Assembly: GCA_029762625.1 (NCBI GenBank)
Contig: JARVGI010000010.1
Coordinates: forward strand, 1 to 64,000
Reading direction: 5' to 3'
DNA from: Methanomicrobiaceae archaeon
GTDB taxonomy: Archaea; Halobacteriota; Methanomicrobia; Methanomicrobiales; Methanomicrobiaceae
DNA: 64,000 nt
The position numbers and the translations under genes are program-made. Position 1 is the first letter of the stretch; each line of letters begins with the position of its first letter. Below the pieces are notes generated by a model. That model had not been told where the DNA came from. It saw nothing but the letters and a program-made list of their open reading frames with translations, and searched no databases. Below are positions 15,587-48,122 of the stretch, in pieces.

Positions 15587-15645
15587 CAATATTCTTAAGG
15601 ACAATAAACCCCGATATTCTGATTATCCTCTGGATGGTGTTGTCG

Positions 15646-16821
15646 ATGAGAGTGTTTTTCATTGGTTTTGGGCAGGCGGGCGGTAAAATCGTCGATATGT
15701 TCATTGAGCAGGATCGGCGAGGCGGGACGCAGAGTTTCCGTGGAATTGCTGTAAATACGGCCCGCACCGACCTTATGGGTCTTAAACATATTGAGTTAAA
15801 AGACCGGATCCTGATCGGCCAGACGGTGGTCAAGGGCCACGGTGTGGGAACTGACAATGTCATGGGCGCAAAGATCACTGCTGATGAAATTGACAGCATC
15901 ATCAATGCCATCGATACGCGGGGGACCCACGATGTCGATGCCTTCGTGATCATTGCAGGGCTCGGCGGGGGCACCGGCTCCGGGGGTTCCCCTGTGCTCG
16001 CCCGCCACTTGAAACGCATTTACCGCGAGCCCGTCTATTCCCTCGGCATCATCCCCGCGCCCGAGGAGGGTCGGCTCTACTCGTACAACGCGGCGAGGAG
16101 CCTCTCCACGCTCGTCAATGAATCCGACAACACCTTCATCTTCGATAACAGCGCCTGGAAGAACGAGGGGGAGAGTGTCCGCTCCGCCTATGAGCGCCTC
16201 AACGACGAGATCGTCCGCCGCTTCGGGGTCCTGTTCCGTGCGGGCGAGGTCGGAAAAAGCGGTGTGGGCGAGATGGTCGTCGACTCCAGCGAGATCATCA
16301 ACACCCTCCGGGGAGGTGGCATCACCTCGATCGGGTACGCCACCAGCGAGGTGATCAGTGCCCGCACAAGGCAGAAACAGGGCATCTTCGGGGGCCTGAA
16401 AGGCTCCTTTAAGAAGAAGGAGGGCACCGAAGAGGTGCTCATCGGCGAGGACAAATCCGCAAAAATTATCGCCCTCGTGCGCAGGGCGATGCTCGGGCGG
16501 CTCACGCTGCCCTGCGATTACAGCACTGCCGAGCGTGCGCTCGTGCTGATGGCCGGCCCTGCAGATGAGATGGACCGCAAAGGGGTGGAGAAGTCCAAGA
16601 GCTGGGTGGAGGAAAACATCGCGGGCGTGGAAGTGCGCGGAGGCGACTATCCCGTCGACAGCAACAAGGTTGCCGCGGTGGTGATTCTGGCAACCGTCGG
16701 GGATGCCCCCCGGATCCGGGAGCTCCTGGAAATTGCCAAGGAAACCAAGGAAGATGTCATTAAATCCAAGGAACGACGCTCAAACATGTTCGATGAGGGA
16801 ATCGAACCATTATTCGACTGA
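15646..16821 (+). CDS. cetZ: CetZ-like tubulin/FtsZ-superfamily GTPase
   Basis: A 391-residue GTPase of the tubulin/FtsZ superfamily, CetZ branch. The N-terminal FIGFGQAGGKIVD is the first nucleotide loop. Residues 107-113 (GGGTGSG) are the tubulin signature loop, and ERLNDEIVRRFGVLF is the T7 region of CetZ type. CetZ proteins control cell shape and motility in haloarchaea. I chose the ATG at 15646, not the one at 15634, because GGATGGTG lies eight bases ahead of it and it places the GTPase at the N-terminus. Eight bases separate it from the next gene, which encodes a membrane-anchored coiled coil and is a likely partner. Confidence 0.85.
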   Translation: MRVFFIGFGQAGGKIVDMFIEQDRRGGTQSFRGIAVNTARTDLMGLKHIELKDRILIGQTVVKGHGVGTDNVMGAKITADEIDSIINAIDTRGTHDVDAFVIIAGLGGGTGSGGSPVLARHLKRIYREPVYSLGIIPAPEEGRLYSYNAARSLSTLVNESDNTFIFDNSAWKNEGESVRSAYERLNDEIVRRFGVLFRAGEVGKSGVGEMVVDSSEIINTLRGGGITSIGYATSEVISARTRQKQGIFGGLKGSFKKKEGTEEVLIGEDKSAKIIALVRRAMLGRLTLPCDYSTAERALVLMAGPADEMDRKGVEKSKSWVEENIAGVEVRGGDYPVDSNKVAAVVILATVGDAPRIRELLEIAKETKEDVIKSKERRSNMFDEGIEPLFD

Positions 16822-23522: not shown

Positions 23523-23938
23523 CGTGACTCCCGGCGGGGGCTTGAGGGGATGCCGGCGGTTTGCCGGTCGGAGCGGTGAAGGCCGGGGGGGACGTGGGGC
23601 GCCATCGTCGCATCAGCAATCCCTGAGGGCACCGCGCGCCGGTGCTCCGGCCTCTCCGGCGGTTCGAACATCCAGTACTGTATAAAGAAATATTGTATTA
23701 ACGTATTTTTGTTTGAACGCATGACGCTTCTTTGCAGGGAGAGGGGATAATCCGGTCTGCGTGTGAATCCCCTCCTCGGTGCCGTACCCCTGTCGTTCCC
23801 CGGCTAAATGCCTCCTGATGGTATTGTATTGAGAAATGAATCTCGATGAGGGGGTTCTTCGGTCGCTGCCGTTCACCGGTGAAAAGTGAAACAGATATAT
23901 ATGAGGAGATTGCGCAAATTATATTACGGGAGCGAGGA
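23523..23938. other. Intergenic region between cobS and the coiled-coil gene
   Basis: No gene is visible here. An AT-rich patch near 23675-23705 (tgtataaagaaatattgtatta) can serve as a promoter for cobS on the minus strand, giving a GC-rich leader of about 130-150 bases. That leader contains a hairpin GCACCG-CGCGC-CGGTGC at 23629-23645. I find no cobalamin-riboswitch B12 box. The right end carries the promoter of the coiled-coil gene. Confidence 0.4.
23894..23902 (+). promoter_or_regulatory. TATA box of the RHH/coiled-coil gene
   Basis: gatatatat lies 37-45 bases before the ATG at 23939. It predicts a start near 23925 and a very short leader containing GGGAGCGAGGA. Confidence 0.5.
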
Positions 23939-26900
23939 ATGCCGATCATTACCATAAAATTACCGGAGGATATACTCAATAGAATCGATAGCGCTGCCGA
24001 AATCGCGAATTTATCCCGTGCGCAGCACGCAGCCAACCTGATCAGGAATTTTTTCGAGAGCCAGGATGAAGAGGATTCCCAGTTTTCCCGGATCCGTCAC
24101 ATACTCCAGGAGAGTGTCGAGAGCGTCAATCATGCTGCCCGCACCATCGAGCACGAGGACGCAGTCAATACGAGGGTGCAGACCTCCCTGATGAATATAC
24201 TCGAGCTGCTGGATCATTTTAATTGTGAGGCGAAGCAGGCCCGGGAAGAAAAGCAGCATATGCAGGACGCGCTCAAACGGACCCTCGATCAGGTGGAAGA
24301 CTCGCTGGACGAGGTCCGGCATCTTCGCGAGGAGAGCCGGCGGGTGCAGGCCGAAAAGAGCCGCCTGAGTGCTGAACTCAATTCGCACGTCCATGAGATC
24401 ACAACCCTCAAATCCAGGGTGCAGTCCGCGGAGGAGGAGCGGAACGGCGCAAAGCGCAGTGCCCGGGCGGCGCAGGAACGGACGGCGGAGCTGGAACATG
24501 ACGTCACCCGGGCACACGAGGAGAATGCCCGTCTACAGGGCGCACTGGACCGGGCTCTCCAGCAGGCCGATGCCGTGACGAGGGAATCGGAGCGGACGGA
24601 ACAGGAAAATGCCCGCATGCAGTCGGCATTAAAAGAGGCGCTCCGCCAGGTGGAGCAGTCGCTGACCCATATCGAACACTATAACGATGAAGTGCTGACT
24701 TCCCAGAGGGAAAAAGTGCGCATGCAGGACGCCCTGCAGCGCACCAGGACAGAATTCGAAACGCTACAGGACGACCACGCGCGGCTTTCCACCGCGCTCG
24801 AGGGGGCACACGCGGAAATCGAAGACCTGAACCGGAAGGTGACTTCTGTCGCGGAAGCACACGACGAGGTCAGATCGGCCCTCGCCGATGCCCGGGCCGA
24901 GATCGGCCGTCGTGAGGAGGCAGCAGCGGTCGCATCGGAAAGTTATGCCCTCGTCGAGGGGTCGCTCGCCGATGCGCTGGAGCGGATCTCCCGCCTGAAG
25001 GAGGAGATCGCATCCCGCGAGCGCGATTTTGCGGCGCAGGCGGAGCGGCTGTCCGGGGTCGAGGGGGAGATCGTTCGGCGGAAGGCCGAACTGGATGCCG
25101 CGTGCAGTGAACGGGACGCATACCTGGACGAGGTCCACCGTGCACGCGTGCGCATCTACGAACTCAACCAGACGGTGCAGGGACAGAAGAACGCGGTGCG
25201 GGAACGCGAGGAGGTCATTGTAAAGGCGCGTGACGAAATCGATCGGTGGCGGAACGAGGCGTTCCTGGTCCATGCGGAGAAGACCGAGATCGAATCCTCC
25301 CTCAAGGCTGCGCACGGCGAGATCGCAGAGCTGCGCGACGCAATTGCGGCCGCTGAGGCGGAGCGGGCGGACCTTTCCGGTGCGCTTGAGAATGCCGACT
25401 CCCGTGTGGAGGCGCTCCAGGACGCTCTCGAGGGGATATCCGCCGAAAAATCCCGGATCCTTTCCGATCTCCAGAACCTGCGAAGCGAACTCGAAGACCT
25501 CTCCATACAGAGCGTCGCAATCGAGGCTGAAAAGGCAGATCTCACCGATGCCATGGAAATGGCGCAGGAGCGTATCGTGATGCTGGAGCGTGAATCGTCA
25601 GCGCTGCAGCAGGAGAATGAAACGCTCAACACATCGCTCTCCGCCGCCGTTGCCGAACAGGAACGGCTCTCTGCCCACGGTGCTTCAATGTCGGCGGCCC
25701 TTGCGAGTGCCGCTGCCCGTGTCGACGAACTCGAGGGGTCTGTCCTCCGCCTTCAGGATGAGAACAGCGGCCTTGGATCGGCACTGGCGTCGGCCCGCGA
25801 GGATGCTGCAGAGGCCCGTGAGCGCATGGAGGCCGCGCGTTCCGAAGCAGCGGAAATTTCTGCAACGCTGCAGAAGGCCGATGCACGGGTGGAAGACCTC
25901 GAGCGCGCGGGTACGGAGATGCGCGACAGGCGAAATGAACTGGCGCTCGCCCTCGCCGCCTCGCAGGATGAGGTGGTGCAGCTCCGGAATACACTTGAAG
26001 CGTCCTCTGCCGGTGCAACGGCCCTCTCTTCGGCGCTCGAGGATGCCGTTTCCCGCGCAGATGTATTGGAACGCGAGGCAGAAGAACTCCGGTCGGAAAA
26101 ATCCCGCATTTCGTCGTCGCTCTGGGCTGCGAACAGCACCATCAACACCCTGGAACACGATCTCAACCAGGTCGGCACGGAAAAGCTCCAGATCGAGGCG
26201 GCGCTCAGGTCGTCGCAGGACGAGATCGCGCAACTGCACCGTGCCCTGGATGCCGGGGATGTGCGCACCGCCGATCTGAGCTCTGCTGCCGATGCCCGGG
26301 TTGCGGAGCTCGAGAATGCGCGCGCTGCGCTCATCGGGGAAAAGGAAGAGATCCAGACAGCCCTCAAAGATGCGCTTGAACTGGTCCACGAGCACAGGAA
26401 GGAGCTGGAGTCGCTTGCCGCCCGGCATAGAGAGGTACAGGCTGAACTCGATGCGACGCGAGAGGAACTTGCGCGTATCCGGCAGCGACCGGATAGTGCG
26501 GATGAGGTCGGGGTGCAGATCGCGCTCGACAATGCGCTCGCATCAGTCGGGCAGCTGCGGGATGAGGTACAGGGCTTAAAGGCTGAAAAAGCTGAGATGC
26601 AGGGGGTATTCCTCGAGGCGACAGGGGAAATGGAACATCTTCTCGACCAGATCAAACGATTGAAGATCGAACTCAAAACCTCGTATGCCGAAAAGGAGAA
26701 ACTGCAGGATGCCCTCAAGTATTCCATCGGCCAGGTGAACCTCCTCAAGAAGGAAGCCGAAGCCGTGGAATTCGAGACACAACGGTTTCCGGTACAAGCG
26801 CCCCCGCCATCCCCGGCACCGGCGGAGAGCGATGAAGGCGGGATCGAGATCCCCGACGATCTCCTGGAACGGATTATGCCCGGTGCGGGAATGAAAAAAA

Positions 26901-27271
26901 TTGCTGCTATTCCCGTTCCCGGATCCGACAGGCCAAAACCCGATGAACCGGACACGGGTGCAGGTGCTGCCCCGGATCCCGATTCGGCACAGCCCGACCA
27001 TCCGGAGGCCGGCATCCCGGAGGTGTCGATGGAGCAGGTAAACCGCTTCTATCGGGAAGTCCGGGGAAACGGCTCTGAGAAGGCACGGATGCAGGCCGCG
27101 CTGAAAAGTGCCCTCGAACAGGTGAACAATCACCAGAAAGAGAATTCCCCCGGCAGGGACGGCTCGGGAGTGCGCACGGCGGGCTTGAGTCCGGTCGAAA
27201 CGATGGATAAGCTGAAGCAGGAAGCGGAGGACGGCATTCTTTTCAAGCTGCGCAGGCGCCTCAAGTCCTGA
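23939..27271 (+). CDS. Giant ribbon-helix-helix / coiled-coil protein (1,110 aa)
   Basis: Residues 1-45 (starting MPIITIKLPEDILNRIDSAA) form a ribbon-helix-helix motif of CopG type, a dimeric DNA-binding fold. Residues about 50-960 are an almost unbroken coiled coil rich in Glu, Ala, Arg and Leu. A sequence like [SA]EKSRI-x-S-A-L recurs; I measured a 28-residue spacing (four heptads) between several consecutive copies. A Pro-rich linker (about 970-1050) follows, and the C-terminus repeats the motif SEKARMQAALKSALEQV before a basic end. There are no SMC-type ATPase heads and no membrane segments. The ATG at 23939 was chosen over 23846 because of the TATA box between them and because the RHH then begins at residue 1. 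It is monocistronic. A role as DNA-bound scaffold is inference; no named family is recognised. Confidence 0.85.
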   Translation: MPIITIKLPEDILNRIDSAAEIANLSRAQHAANLIRNFFESQDEEDSQFSRIRHILQESVESVNHAARTIEHEDAVNTRVQTSLMNILELLDHFNCEAKQAREEKQHMQDALKRTLDQVEDSLDEVRHLREESRRVQAEKSRLSAELNSHVHEITTLKSRVQSAEEERNGAKRSARAAQERTAELEHDVTRAHEENARLQGALDRALQQADAVTRESERTEQENARMQSALKEALRQVEQSLTHIEHYNDEVLTSQREKVRMQDALQRTRTEFETLQDDHARLSTALEGAHAEIEDLNRKVTSVAEAHDEVRSALADARAEIGRREEAAAVASESYALVEGSLADALERISRLKEEIASRERDFAAQAERLSGVEGEIVRRKAELDAACSERDAYLDEVHRARVRIYELNQTVQGQKNAVREREEVIVKARDEIDRWRNEAFLVHAEKTEIESSLKAAHGEIAELRDAIAAAEAERADLSGALENADSRVEALQDALEGISAEKSRILSDLQNLRSELEDLSIQSVAIEAEKADLTDAMEMAQERIVMLERESSALQQENETLNTSLSAAVAEQERLSAHGASMSAALASAAARVDELEGSVLRLQDENSGLGSALASAREDAAEARERMEAARSEAAEISATLQKADARVEDLERAGTEMRDRRNELALALAASQDEVVQLRNTLEASSAGATALSSALEDAVSRADVLEREAEELRSEKSRISSSLWAANSTINTLEHDLNQVGTEKLQIEAALRSSQDEIAQLHRALDAGDVRTADLSSAADARVAELENARAALIGEKEEIQTALKDALELVHEHRKELESLAARHREVQAELDATREELARIRQRPDSADEVGVQIALDNALASVGQLRDEVQGLKAEKAEMQGVFLEATGEMEHLLDQIKRLKIELKTSYAEKEKLQDALKYSIGQVNLLKKEAEAVEFETQRFPVQAPPPSPAPAESDEGGIEIPDDLLERIMPGAGMKKIAAIPVPGSDRPKPDEPDTGAGAAPDPDSAQPDHPEAGIPEVSMEQVNRFYREVRGNGSEKARMQAALKSALEQVNNHQKENSPGRDGSGVRTAGLSPVETMDKLKQEAEDGILFKLRRRLKS

Positions 27272-27379
27272 AGCGCTGCGCACTGCCCTCTGCTCTTTTC
27301 CCCGCATTTCCGCAACGCACGTGCTCCTCCGTGCGAGAAATCCTGCACTTTTTCTACGAGAAGCGCGCAATTTACCGGT

Positions 27380-31402: not shown

Positions 31403-31428
31403 ATCGGGGCCGCCCCTCTCTCTTTTTC

Positions 31429-31536
31429 GAAACGTGGAACGGAACGTGGAACGGAACGTGGAACGGAACGTGGAACGGAACGTGGAACGGAACGTGGAAC
31501 GATACGTGGAACGATACGTGGTACGATGGGTGGAAC
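31429..31536 (+). repeat. 12-bp tandem repeat (GGAACGTGGAAC), nine units
   Basis: Nine consecutive 12-base units cover 31429-31536: one GAAACGTGGAAC, five identical GGAACGTGGAAC, then GATACGTGGAAC, GATACGTGGTAC and GATGGGTGGAAC. Beyond 31537 the pattern decays. Because the unit is a multiple of three and lacks stops, every frame stays open through it (TWNG, NVER or RGTE-like repeats). The array lies between the nitroreductase stop and the promoter of the HPS-RraA gene. Confidence 0.95.
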
Positions 31537-31572
31537 GAACCGGTAAACAAACCGCTGCGACCCGAACTGCGG

Positions 31573-47180: not shown

Positions 47181-48122
47181 ATGAAAGATCTAAGCATGGA
47201 GGGCGATTATTTCTCCGAGTGGGTCTCCCGGTTCGGCCACCACCTGCGGATGAGGAATTATTCGCCCCGTACCATCCAGAGTTACGAGCGGGTGCTCCGG
47301 AAATTCGCCTACTATATGTGGCTCCGGCGGCATATCGACCCTTCAAAACTGGTGATCTACTGGAAGGACCTCGACCATGCCCGCATGGACACGGAGGTGG
47401 ACGCCACCCCCGTGATGATCAACGACTTTCTCTCGTTTTTAGTGTCGATGCGGGAGTACAAGCCGGCCACGTTGCACCGGGTAATCTCGACGCTGAGCTC
47501 GTTTTACCGGTATCTCGCCACGCAGGGCGTCATCGATCGCAACCCCATGGTCAGCGTGGACCGGCCCCGCGTCAAGGAGACAGAGATACGCTGCCTCAAG
47601 CACAACCAGGTGCAGAAACTCATCGATTCCATCGAAAATCCCCGGGACCGGCTCATTTTCCGGACGATTTACGCCACCGGGGTGCGGGTCTCGGAGCTTT
47701 GCGGCATCGCCATCGATGACATCGATTTCGAGGAGCACACCATCCGCGTCCGGGGAAAAGGGGGCAAAATACGGACCGTATTCATCGATGAGGACACGCT
47801 CGCGGAGATTGAGGCATTTTGCGGCGGGCGGATCGCCGGCCCGCTGTTCGAGGGCCAGCAGGGCCATCCCCTCTCGCCCCGCACGGTCCAGCATATCTTC
47901 AAACGCTACGCCCCCGAGGGTATCACCCCGCACAAAATCCGCCACAGTTACGCCTCCGAACTCTACAAACGCTCCAGGAACCTGCGCGTCGTGCAGGAGA
48001 ACCTGGGCCATTCCTCGATCAAGACCACCGAGATCTACCTGCACACGGACCTCGACGAGCGAAGAGAGGTGTACCGGCGTTATTTCCCGCTTTCGAACGG
48101 GAACGGGGGGAATGAATCCTGA
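47181..48122 (+). CDS. xerA: Tyrosine recombinase XerA
   Basis: A 313-residue integrase-family recombinase. Residues 8-125 are the SAM-like DNA-binding domain; the catalytic domain carries Arg169 (ATGVRVSEL), Lys193 (RGKGGKIR), His251 and Arg254 (HKIRHSYASEL), His277 (LGHSSIKTT) and the nucleophile Tyr286 (IYLH). All six catalytic residues are present. Size and sequence match archaeal XerA, which resolves chromosome dimers at dif; an integrative element role is not excluded because no phage genes are nearby. The ATG at 47181 has GGAG just ahead; an in-frame ATG follows at 47196. It is the only gene in about 3 kb. Confidence 0.93.
   Translation: MKDLSMEGDYFSEWVSRFGHHLRMRNYSPRTIQSYERVLRKFAYYMWLRRHIDPSKLVIYWKDLDHARMDTEVDATPVMINDFLSFLVSMREYKPATLHRVISTLSSFYRYLATQGVIDRNPMVSVDRPRVKETEIRCLKHNQVQKLIDSIENPRDRLIFRTIYATGVRVSELCGIAIDDIDFEEHTIRVRGKGGKIRTVFIDEDTLAEIEAFCGGRIAGPLFEGQQGHPLSPRTVQHIFKRYAPEGITPHKIRHSYASELYKRSRNLRVVQENLGHSSIKTTEIYLHTDLDERREVYRRYFPLSNGNGGNES

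Follow-up and report, generated by a model that had tools for sequence, protein, structure and literature searches.

A ribbon-helix-helix protein with a giant coiled-coil rod and a conserved C-terminal tail in one archaeal genus: a candidate DNA tether

Several described proteins share a plan in which a DNA-binding domain is joined to a coiled or long helical segment (PMC11500499, PMC7821693, PMC12756933). RocS of Streptococcus pneumoniae, shown by experiment to be a chromosome segregation factor, and Par(pSK1) combine an N-terminal DNA-binding domain with a central coiled coil and a C-terminal segment; in RocS this segment is an amphipathic helix whose membrane binding depends on oligomerisation (PMC11500499). 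The Ter macrodomain organiser MatP is a ribbon-helix-helix (RHH) protein in which the dimerising DNA-binding RHH is combined with a C-terminal coiled coil; it binds membranes and links the chromosome to the division site (PMC12756933). KfrA has an N-terminal DNA-binding head and a long helical tail, regulates its own expression and forms threads on its operator DNA (PMC7821693). RacA of Bacillus subtilis, which anchors the chromosome to the cell pole, is likewise built from a DNA-binding head and a coiled coil, although its head is a winged HTH, its coil is short and it relies on a polar protein partner (in part PMC11500499).

Within the window, i.e. the whole 64,000-nucleotide stretch of archaeal DNA analysed here, we examined a gene for a 1,110-residue protein (hereafter the rod protein) that follows the same plan and yet departs from each of these systems. 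RocS and Par(pSK1) are bacterial and much shorter, and are characterized by a MerR-type winged HTH rather than an RHH and by DUF536, neither of which Pfam finds in the rod protein. MatP has no giant rod, and its family domain comprises an N-terminal four-helix bundle plus RHH, whereas the RHH of the rod protein starts at residue 1; Pfam gives no MatP match. The KfrA-type plasmid proteins have an HTH head, and no sequence similarity between them and the rod protein was found with Pfam or in plasmid records. SMC and Rad50 proteins differ in possessing a Walker A/B ATPase head, which the rod protein lacks: SMC_N does not match it, and a search of its own genome with SMC_N lists other loci only, which bears out the preliminary description of this DNA in excluding an SMC protein. 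The rod protein thus lies outside the RocS/Par, KfrA and MatP families and at most works like them. The same description went too far in stating that no family with this design is known, because the plan exists in bacteria with other DNA-binding folds or lengths; the combination of an RHH with a giant rod is a variant of it.

The reading frame (Table 1) is free of internal stops, and orthologues are present in two metagenome-assembled genomes: one of 1,103 aa and 88% identity (G002, filed as Methanoculleus sp. SpSt-1212) and one of 1,019 aa and 63% identity (G001, BL5_bin.5). The start is supported by the fact that the open frame in G001 (1020, for a protein of 1019 aa) closes just before the same ATG, the alignment placing a TGA two codons upstream of this shared codon. 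Both orthologues have the RHH start and the rod, so that homologues lacking the RHH, which the preliminary description had named as the sign of a misplaced start, were not encountered. With a whole-gene dN/dS of 0.38-0.43 across the orthologue comparisons, the gene is under purifying selection in all three species that carry it, and the rod protein is real, well supported and unusual. Orthologues, which the preliminary description had suggested looking for in Methanomicrobia, are not distributed across that group: whole-genome searches recovered the long protein only in G001 and G002, which belong to the same genus, and within the available sampling it is so far restricted to that genus. A profile of the C-terminal region gave chance matches only elsewhere in the family (L065, for instance, is CheA-like). 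Other candidates were rejected as showing coil similarity only, namely L004 and L005, coiled-coil proteins without an RHH which we take to contain PASTA-like repeats, and L013, which looks like Rad50.

Table 1. Features of the rod gene and its immediate flanks (window coordinates)
Feature	Position	Strand	Basis
RHH - coiled-coil rod - tail protein, 1,110 aa	23939..27271	+	Open reading frame, two orthologues, dN/dS
Ribbon-helix-helix domain, residues 1-43 (MPIITIKLPEDILNRIDSAAEIANLSRAQHAANLIRNFFESQD)	23939..24067	+	hhalign, Pfam RHH_1, weak PDB match
Linker and first helices, residues 44-100, conserved 75-93%	24068..24238	+	Orthologue alignment
Coiled-coil rod, residues 101-945, 28-residue super-period	24239..26773	+	Heptad and autocorrelation
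Pro-rich flexible linker, residues 946-1025	26774..27013	+	Sequence; low-confidence, mostly non-helical model
Short conserved helical segment (residues 1026-1070), including SMEQVNRFYREVRGNGSEKARMQAALKSALEQV	27014..27148	+	73-96% identity, dN/dS 0.18-0.27
C-terminal tail (residues 1083-1110; end DGILFKLRRRLKS), a candidate peptide for binding membrane or partner	27185..27268	+	dN/dS, charge/moment scan
Conserved upstream block with GTATTAACGTAT	23674..23725	.	Near-identical in three species, flanking intergenic DNA diverged
Intrinsic-terminator-like hairpin and T run, before cobT-like gene	27331..27353	+	Terminator scan; sequence largely conserved in three species

Elsewhere in the window, about 8 kb upstream of the rod gene, positions 15634-16815 encode a tubulin-like CetZ protein (Pfam CetZ_C, E 2e-72). 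A 12-bp tandem array at 31428-31539, with about 8-9 copies of AACGTGGAACGG at 92-96% matches, immediately precedes a fused OMPdecase/HUMPS - RraA-like gene and shares its reading frame. An ORF at 47181-48119, which from its sequence we read as putatively tyrosine-recombinase-like, precedes a long run of genes of sugar-nucleotide and glycosyltransferase type that reaches the end of the window.

The RHH assigned to the N-terminus in the preliminary description is upheld by profile comparison. Across residues 1-42, Pfam ranks RHH_1 first in each of the three orthologues (E 0.016, 0.0005 and 0.003), with every score under the curated cut-off of 20.5 bits. When this segment was aligned by hhalign with six RHH domains that had been picked independently of the rod protein from proteins of the family, nickel-regulator-like ones among them, the probability was 92% (E 6e-7), as against 1.3% for its C-terminal region used as a negative control. 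We therefore consider the predicted homology firm by profile-profile comparison and weak by Pfam alone; among solved structures, the CopG regulator 7by2 is matched weakly in sequence (E 0.19). Residues T5 and K7 of the strand and the SRAQH motif at the start of helix B are invariant in the three species, and the strand positions equivalent to T5 and K7 in RHH proteins usually face DNA. A low-confidence AlphaFold model computed from the three sequences gave the N-terminal part as a monomer without the strand (pLDDT 59), and is uninformative because the RHH fold is built from two chains.

These data bear on the alternative that the protein is a cytoskeletal or scaffold rod which does not bind DNA but spaces structures or bundles them, its RHH having been reduced to a dimerisation clip. 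Consistent with such a role are the sub-threshold Pfam scores, the high dN/dS of the RHH (0.59-0.91), which reflects the low dS of so short a segment, and the restriction of Pfam and NCBIfam matches to generic coiled-coil families (such as intermediate filament, crescentin and SMC coil). However, in absolute dN to G001 the RHH has changed about half as much as the rod (0.145 vs 0.22-0.41). The invariance of T5, K7 and SRAQH, together with the retention of a canonical RHH in the short relatives described below, also argues against a mere clip, and we consider this alternative unlikely.

An RHH-like segment (MVRYSVTMDEELTRQIDSLCSTKGISRSEWIGDVCSRYL...) is also found at the N-terminus of an AMP-binding (acyl-CoA synthetase-like) enzyme encoded from G000:C11:96456 on (L060:1489-3081). 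This fusion, recurring in L158, L167 and frames of 620-700 aa in most genomes of the family, appears conserved; its gene adjoins a second synthetase copy, and the presence of an RHH on a metabolic enzyme is odd. The fusions are unrelated to the rod and were rejected as its relatives.

The long coiled coil of the preliminary description is evident as a heptad that runs unbroken and in a single register from about residue 56 to about residue 790, with the hydrophobic power in the rod peaking at 3.499 residues; at 0.1485 nm per residue, residues 57-945 correspond to a rod of about 132 nm (up to about 130 nm as rounded). The Pfam names CENP-F, GAS and Filament, which belong to eukaryotic proteins, were rejected as generic coiled-coil matches. 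Measured against shuffles in which residues trade places only with others at the same heptad position, the identity autocorrelation is elevated at lags of 28 (z = 5.7), 56 (4.4), 84 (3.5) and 112 (3.1) and flat at 7, 21, 35 and 49. Thus a period beyond the heptad is present, and it recurs in both orthologues (lag-28 z of 5.4 in G002 and 7.4 in G001, the most distant), whereas the lag-28 peak is absent in the SMC coils of the same genome and in a Rad50-like coil. A fitted 28-residue unit scores 218.9 against a mean of 185.3 and a maximum of 212.3 in 60 shuffles. The exact 28-residue spacing of motifs claimed earlier is confirmed with a correction: spacings are mostly multiples of 7 (among them 28, 35, 49, 56 and 112), this rule being broken in places nearer the C-terminus, and the period is block-wise rather than global, with phase slips by whole heptads.

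Comparison with myosin rods, from which the preliminary description had borrowed its term for the period, reveals a different basis for the repeat. Both have a 28-residue repeat, but the 28/3 alternation of surface charge is missing in the rod protein, the corresponding component being non-significant (p = 0.25) and the charge autocorrelation at lag 28 having a z of -0.4. Instead, the Lys or Asn of the recurrent EK/EN motif falls at 'a' in the core. Pairs of polar 'a' layers are in excess at separations of four and eight heptads (9 pairs at each, vs expectations of 3.4 and 3.2; p = 0.0006 for both) and at none of the other heptad spacings tested. The period comes largely from Lys, Asn or Arg at core 'a' positions every fourth heptad. 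As Asn or Lys at 'a' is established to favour parallel dimers, a repeat that is a feature of the core would set the register of the chains and favour a parallel dimer. Furthermore, once adjacent gaps are joined, every length change between orthologues is a multiple of seven (7 to G002; 7, 14, 14, 21 and 84 to G001), and these heptad-sized indels point to a rod selected for register.

Following the rod, the Pro-rich linker is the least conserved part of the protein (50% identity to G001), and the AlphaFold model of the C-terminal part is of low confidence (pLDDT 53); this model and its N-terminal counterpart were kept out of the fold search. By contrast with the linker, the last 28 residues (KLKQEAEDGILFKLRRRLKS; end SPVETMDKLKQEAEDGILFKLRRRLKS) are under the strongest constraint in the protein, with dN/dS values of 0.00 and 0.03. 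The final 11 residues rank first among all 11-mers of the protein in combined charge and hydrophobic moment. Judged by its hydrophobic moment, the tail is no more amphipathic as a helix than when its residues are shuffled (p = 0.2), which counts against the tether reading given below; a known peptide from Escherichia coli MinD does no better against its shuffles (p = 0.31). The tail sequence has no second occurrence elsewhere in the genome. We propose that this basic, hydrophobic tail docks on the membrane or on a partner, though it could bind protein or DNA instead.

The conservation of the tail was overlooked in the preliminary description, as were a set of short archaeal proteins, recovered with an N-terminal profile and in an earlier search, in which an RHH is followed by a coil and a basic hydrophobic tail. 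They are about 100-210 aa long (L123, L139, L149, L155, L157, L180 and others) and end in sequences such as GFFRRLFGG, WWEFWR, WWKFWR (GWWKFWR), WWRFWKR and FSKLKFWGKR; a GIFTRLKRA tail was found in the same order and a KPKWMFWK tail in the same family. In L129, from another family of the same order, an RHH-like domain and coil are followed by a C-terminal transmembrane helix. The genome of the rod protein itself encodes one such short RHH-coil protein (L180, G000:C24:75933-76193) ending in KRWWKFW; many genomes of the order carry counterparts (L161, L164, L168 and others), whose tails vary (RPWEFWRK, KWWDRLDFSTK, WDYLMKRKE). Another, annotated as hypothetical, is carried by the 18-kb plasmid pGP6 of Methanothrix soehngenii.

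A profile built from six of the short proteins without the rod protein recovers it with an E-value of 4.4e-8 over positions 1-117 of 140, along with further relatives, its seeds themselves having first been found by searches from the rod protein. Under a loose basic-hydrophobic criterion 10 of 12 tails qualify, as against 50 of 265 control C-termini; this frequency is suggestive and is no test, since we noticed the tails on reading the sequences. A tail pattern fitted to the relatives was rejected as a test, having been derived from them. No curated Pfam or PHROGs family spans the whole architecture in the members scanned, and we found no family name for these proteins. They resemble the rod protein in having an RHH, a coil and a basic hydrophobic or transmembrane C-terminus, but their coils are several times shorter; based on this likeness the rod protein appears to be an archaeal RHH-coil-anchor design in giant-rod form, in parallel with the bacterial RocS, Par(pSK1), RacA and MatP.

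The rod gene is placed between cobS and a cobT-like gene, the latter being present in 27 of the 28 genomes of the family. As the rod gene is absent from the cobT-like flank in the nine family genomes outside the genus in which this flank was read, there seems to have been a gain at the level of the genus, or loss elsewhere, within a conserved neighbourhood. This distribution, together with the presence of a short RHH-coil-tail relative on pGP6 and a 5' end that is AT-richer than the remainder of the gene, could be seen as the trace of a mobile element, the rod protein being a tether or partition protein of a plasmid or provirus that became fixed at this site. Against such an origin, the full protein has no match among 50,697 phage records, 72,556 plasmid records or viral contigs, on which ground we rejected descent of the full protein from a phage or plasmid; the flanks contain no recognised element genes; and purifying selection conserves the gene in all three known species. 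We accordingly regard a mobile-element remnant as decidedly unlikely. Given the terminator-like hairpin that separates it from the cobT-like gene, the rod gene may be transcribed alone; five terminator-like sites were found in the region, vs 3.6 expected in shuffles.

The conserved block upstream of the gene is likely to be a promoter or operator between cobS and the rod gene; as a promoter it may serve the rod gene, cobS or the two together. Its 20-mer core has one copy in the genome even when up to 3 mismatches are allowed, for which reason we rejected a recurrent centromere-like site; MatP, by comparison, has many matS sites. A single site is what would be expected of an autoregulatory operator, and it thus lends some weight to a filament-forming autoregulator comparable to the KfrA proteins, which polymerise into threads on the DNA of their own operators (PMC7821693). 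Such a protein would bind its own promoter, its rods polymerising along or away from the DNA and its C-terminal peptide serving end-to-end assembly rather than membrane contact. However, Pfam gives no KfrA_N match, KfrA tails are far shorter than that of the rod protein, and the block may simply be a promoter. The strongly conserved last 28 residues and the tails of the short relatives point rather to docking, and we think such a regulator improbable.

In light of these observations we tentatively favour, as a distinctly possible reading, a dimeric DNA tether with the RHH on DNA, the tail on a membrane or partner and the rod in between. The N-terminal RHH dimer would bind DNA, probably including the region of its own promoter, and would be continued by a parallel two-stranded rod of up to about 130 nm in which the Lys/Asn core layers every 28 residues would keep the chains in register. 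Beyond the flexible Pro-rich linker, the near-invariant basic hydrophobic peptide would dock on a partner protein or on the membrane of the cell. This would create a long, ATP-independent link from one or more DNA sites to the cell periphery, which might act in nucleoid positioning, in segregation or in both.

More speculative, and in our view somewhat unlikely, is the wider proposal that the rod protein and its short relatives constitute an archaeal family of single-protein, ATP-independent DNA-membrane tethers, each joining an RHH dimer to a C-terminal membrane peptide through a coiled-coil spacer, that are found on chromosomes and plasmids and are unrelated by descent to RocS, Par and RacA. 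This genus would then have used a 28-residue module to lengthen the spacer to about 130 nm, producing a molecular ruler between nucleoid and envelope. If membrane docking is true, the arrangement would be convergent with that of the bacterial RocS, Par and MatP proteins. Judging from the short relatives, such DNA anchors may form a broader class in archaea, unnamed in the family libraries used, and, as the positioning and segregation of chromosomes and plasmids in methanogens are poorly known, the rod protein offers a directly testable candidate.
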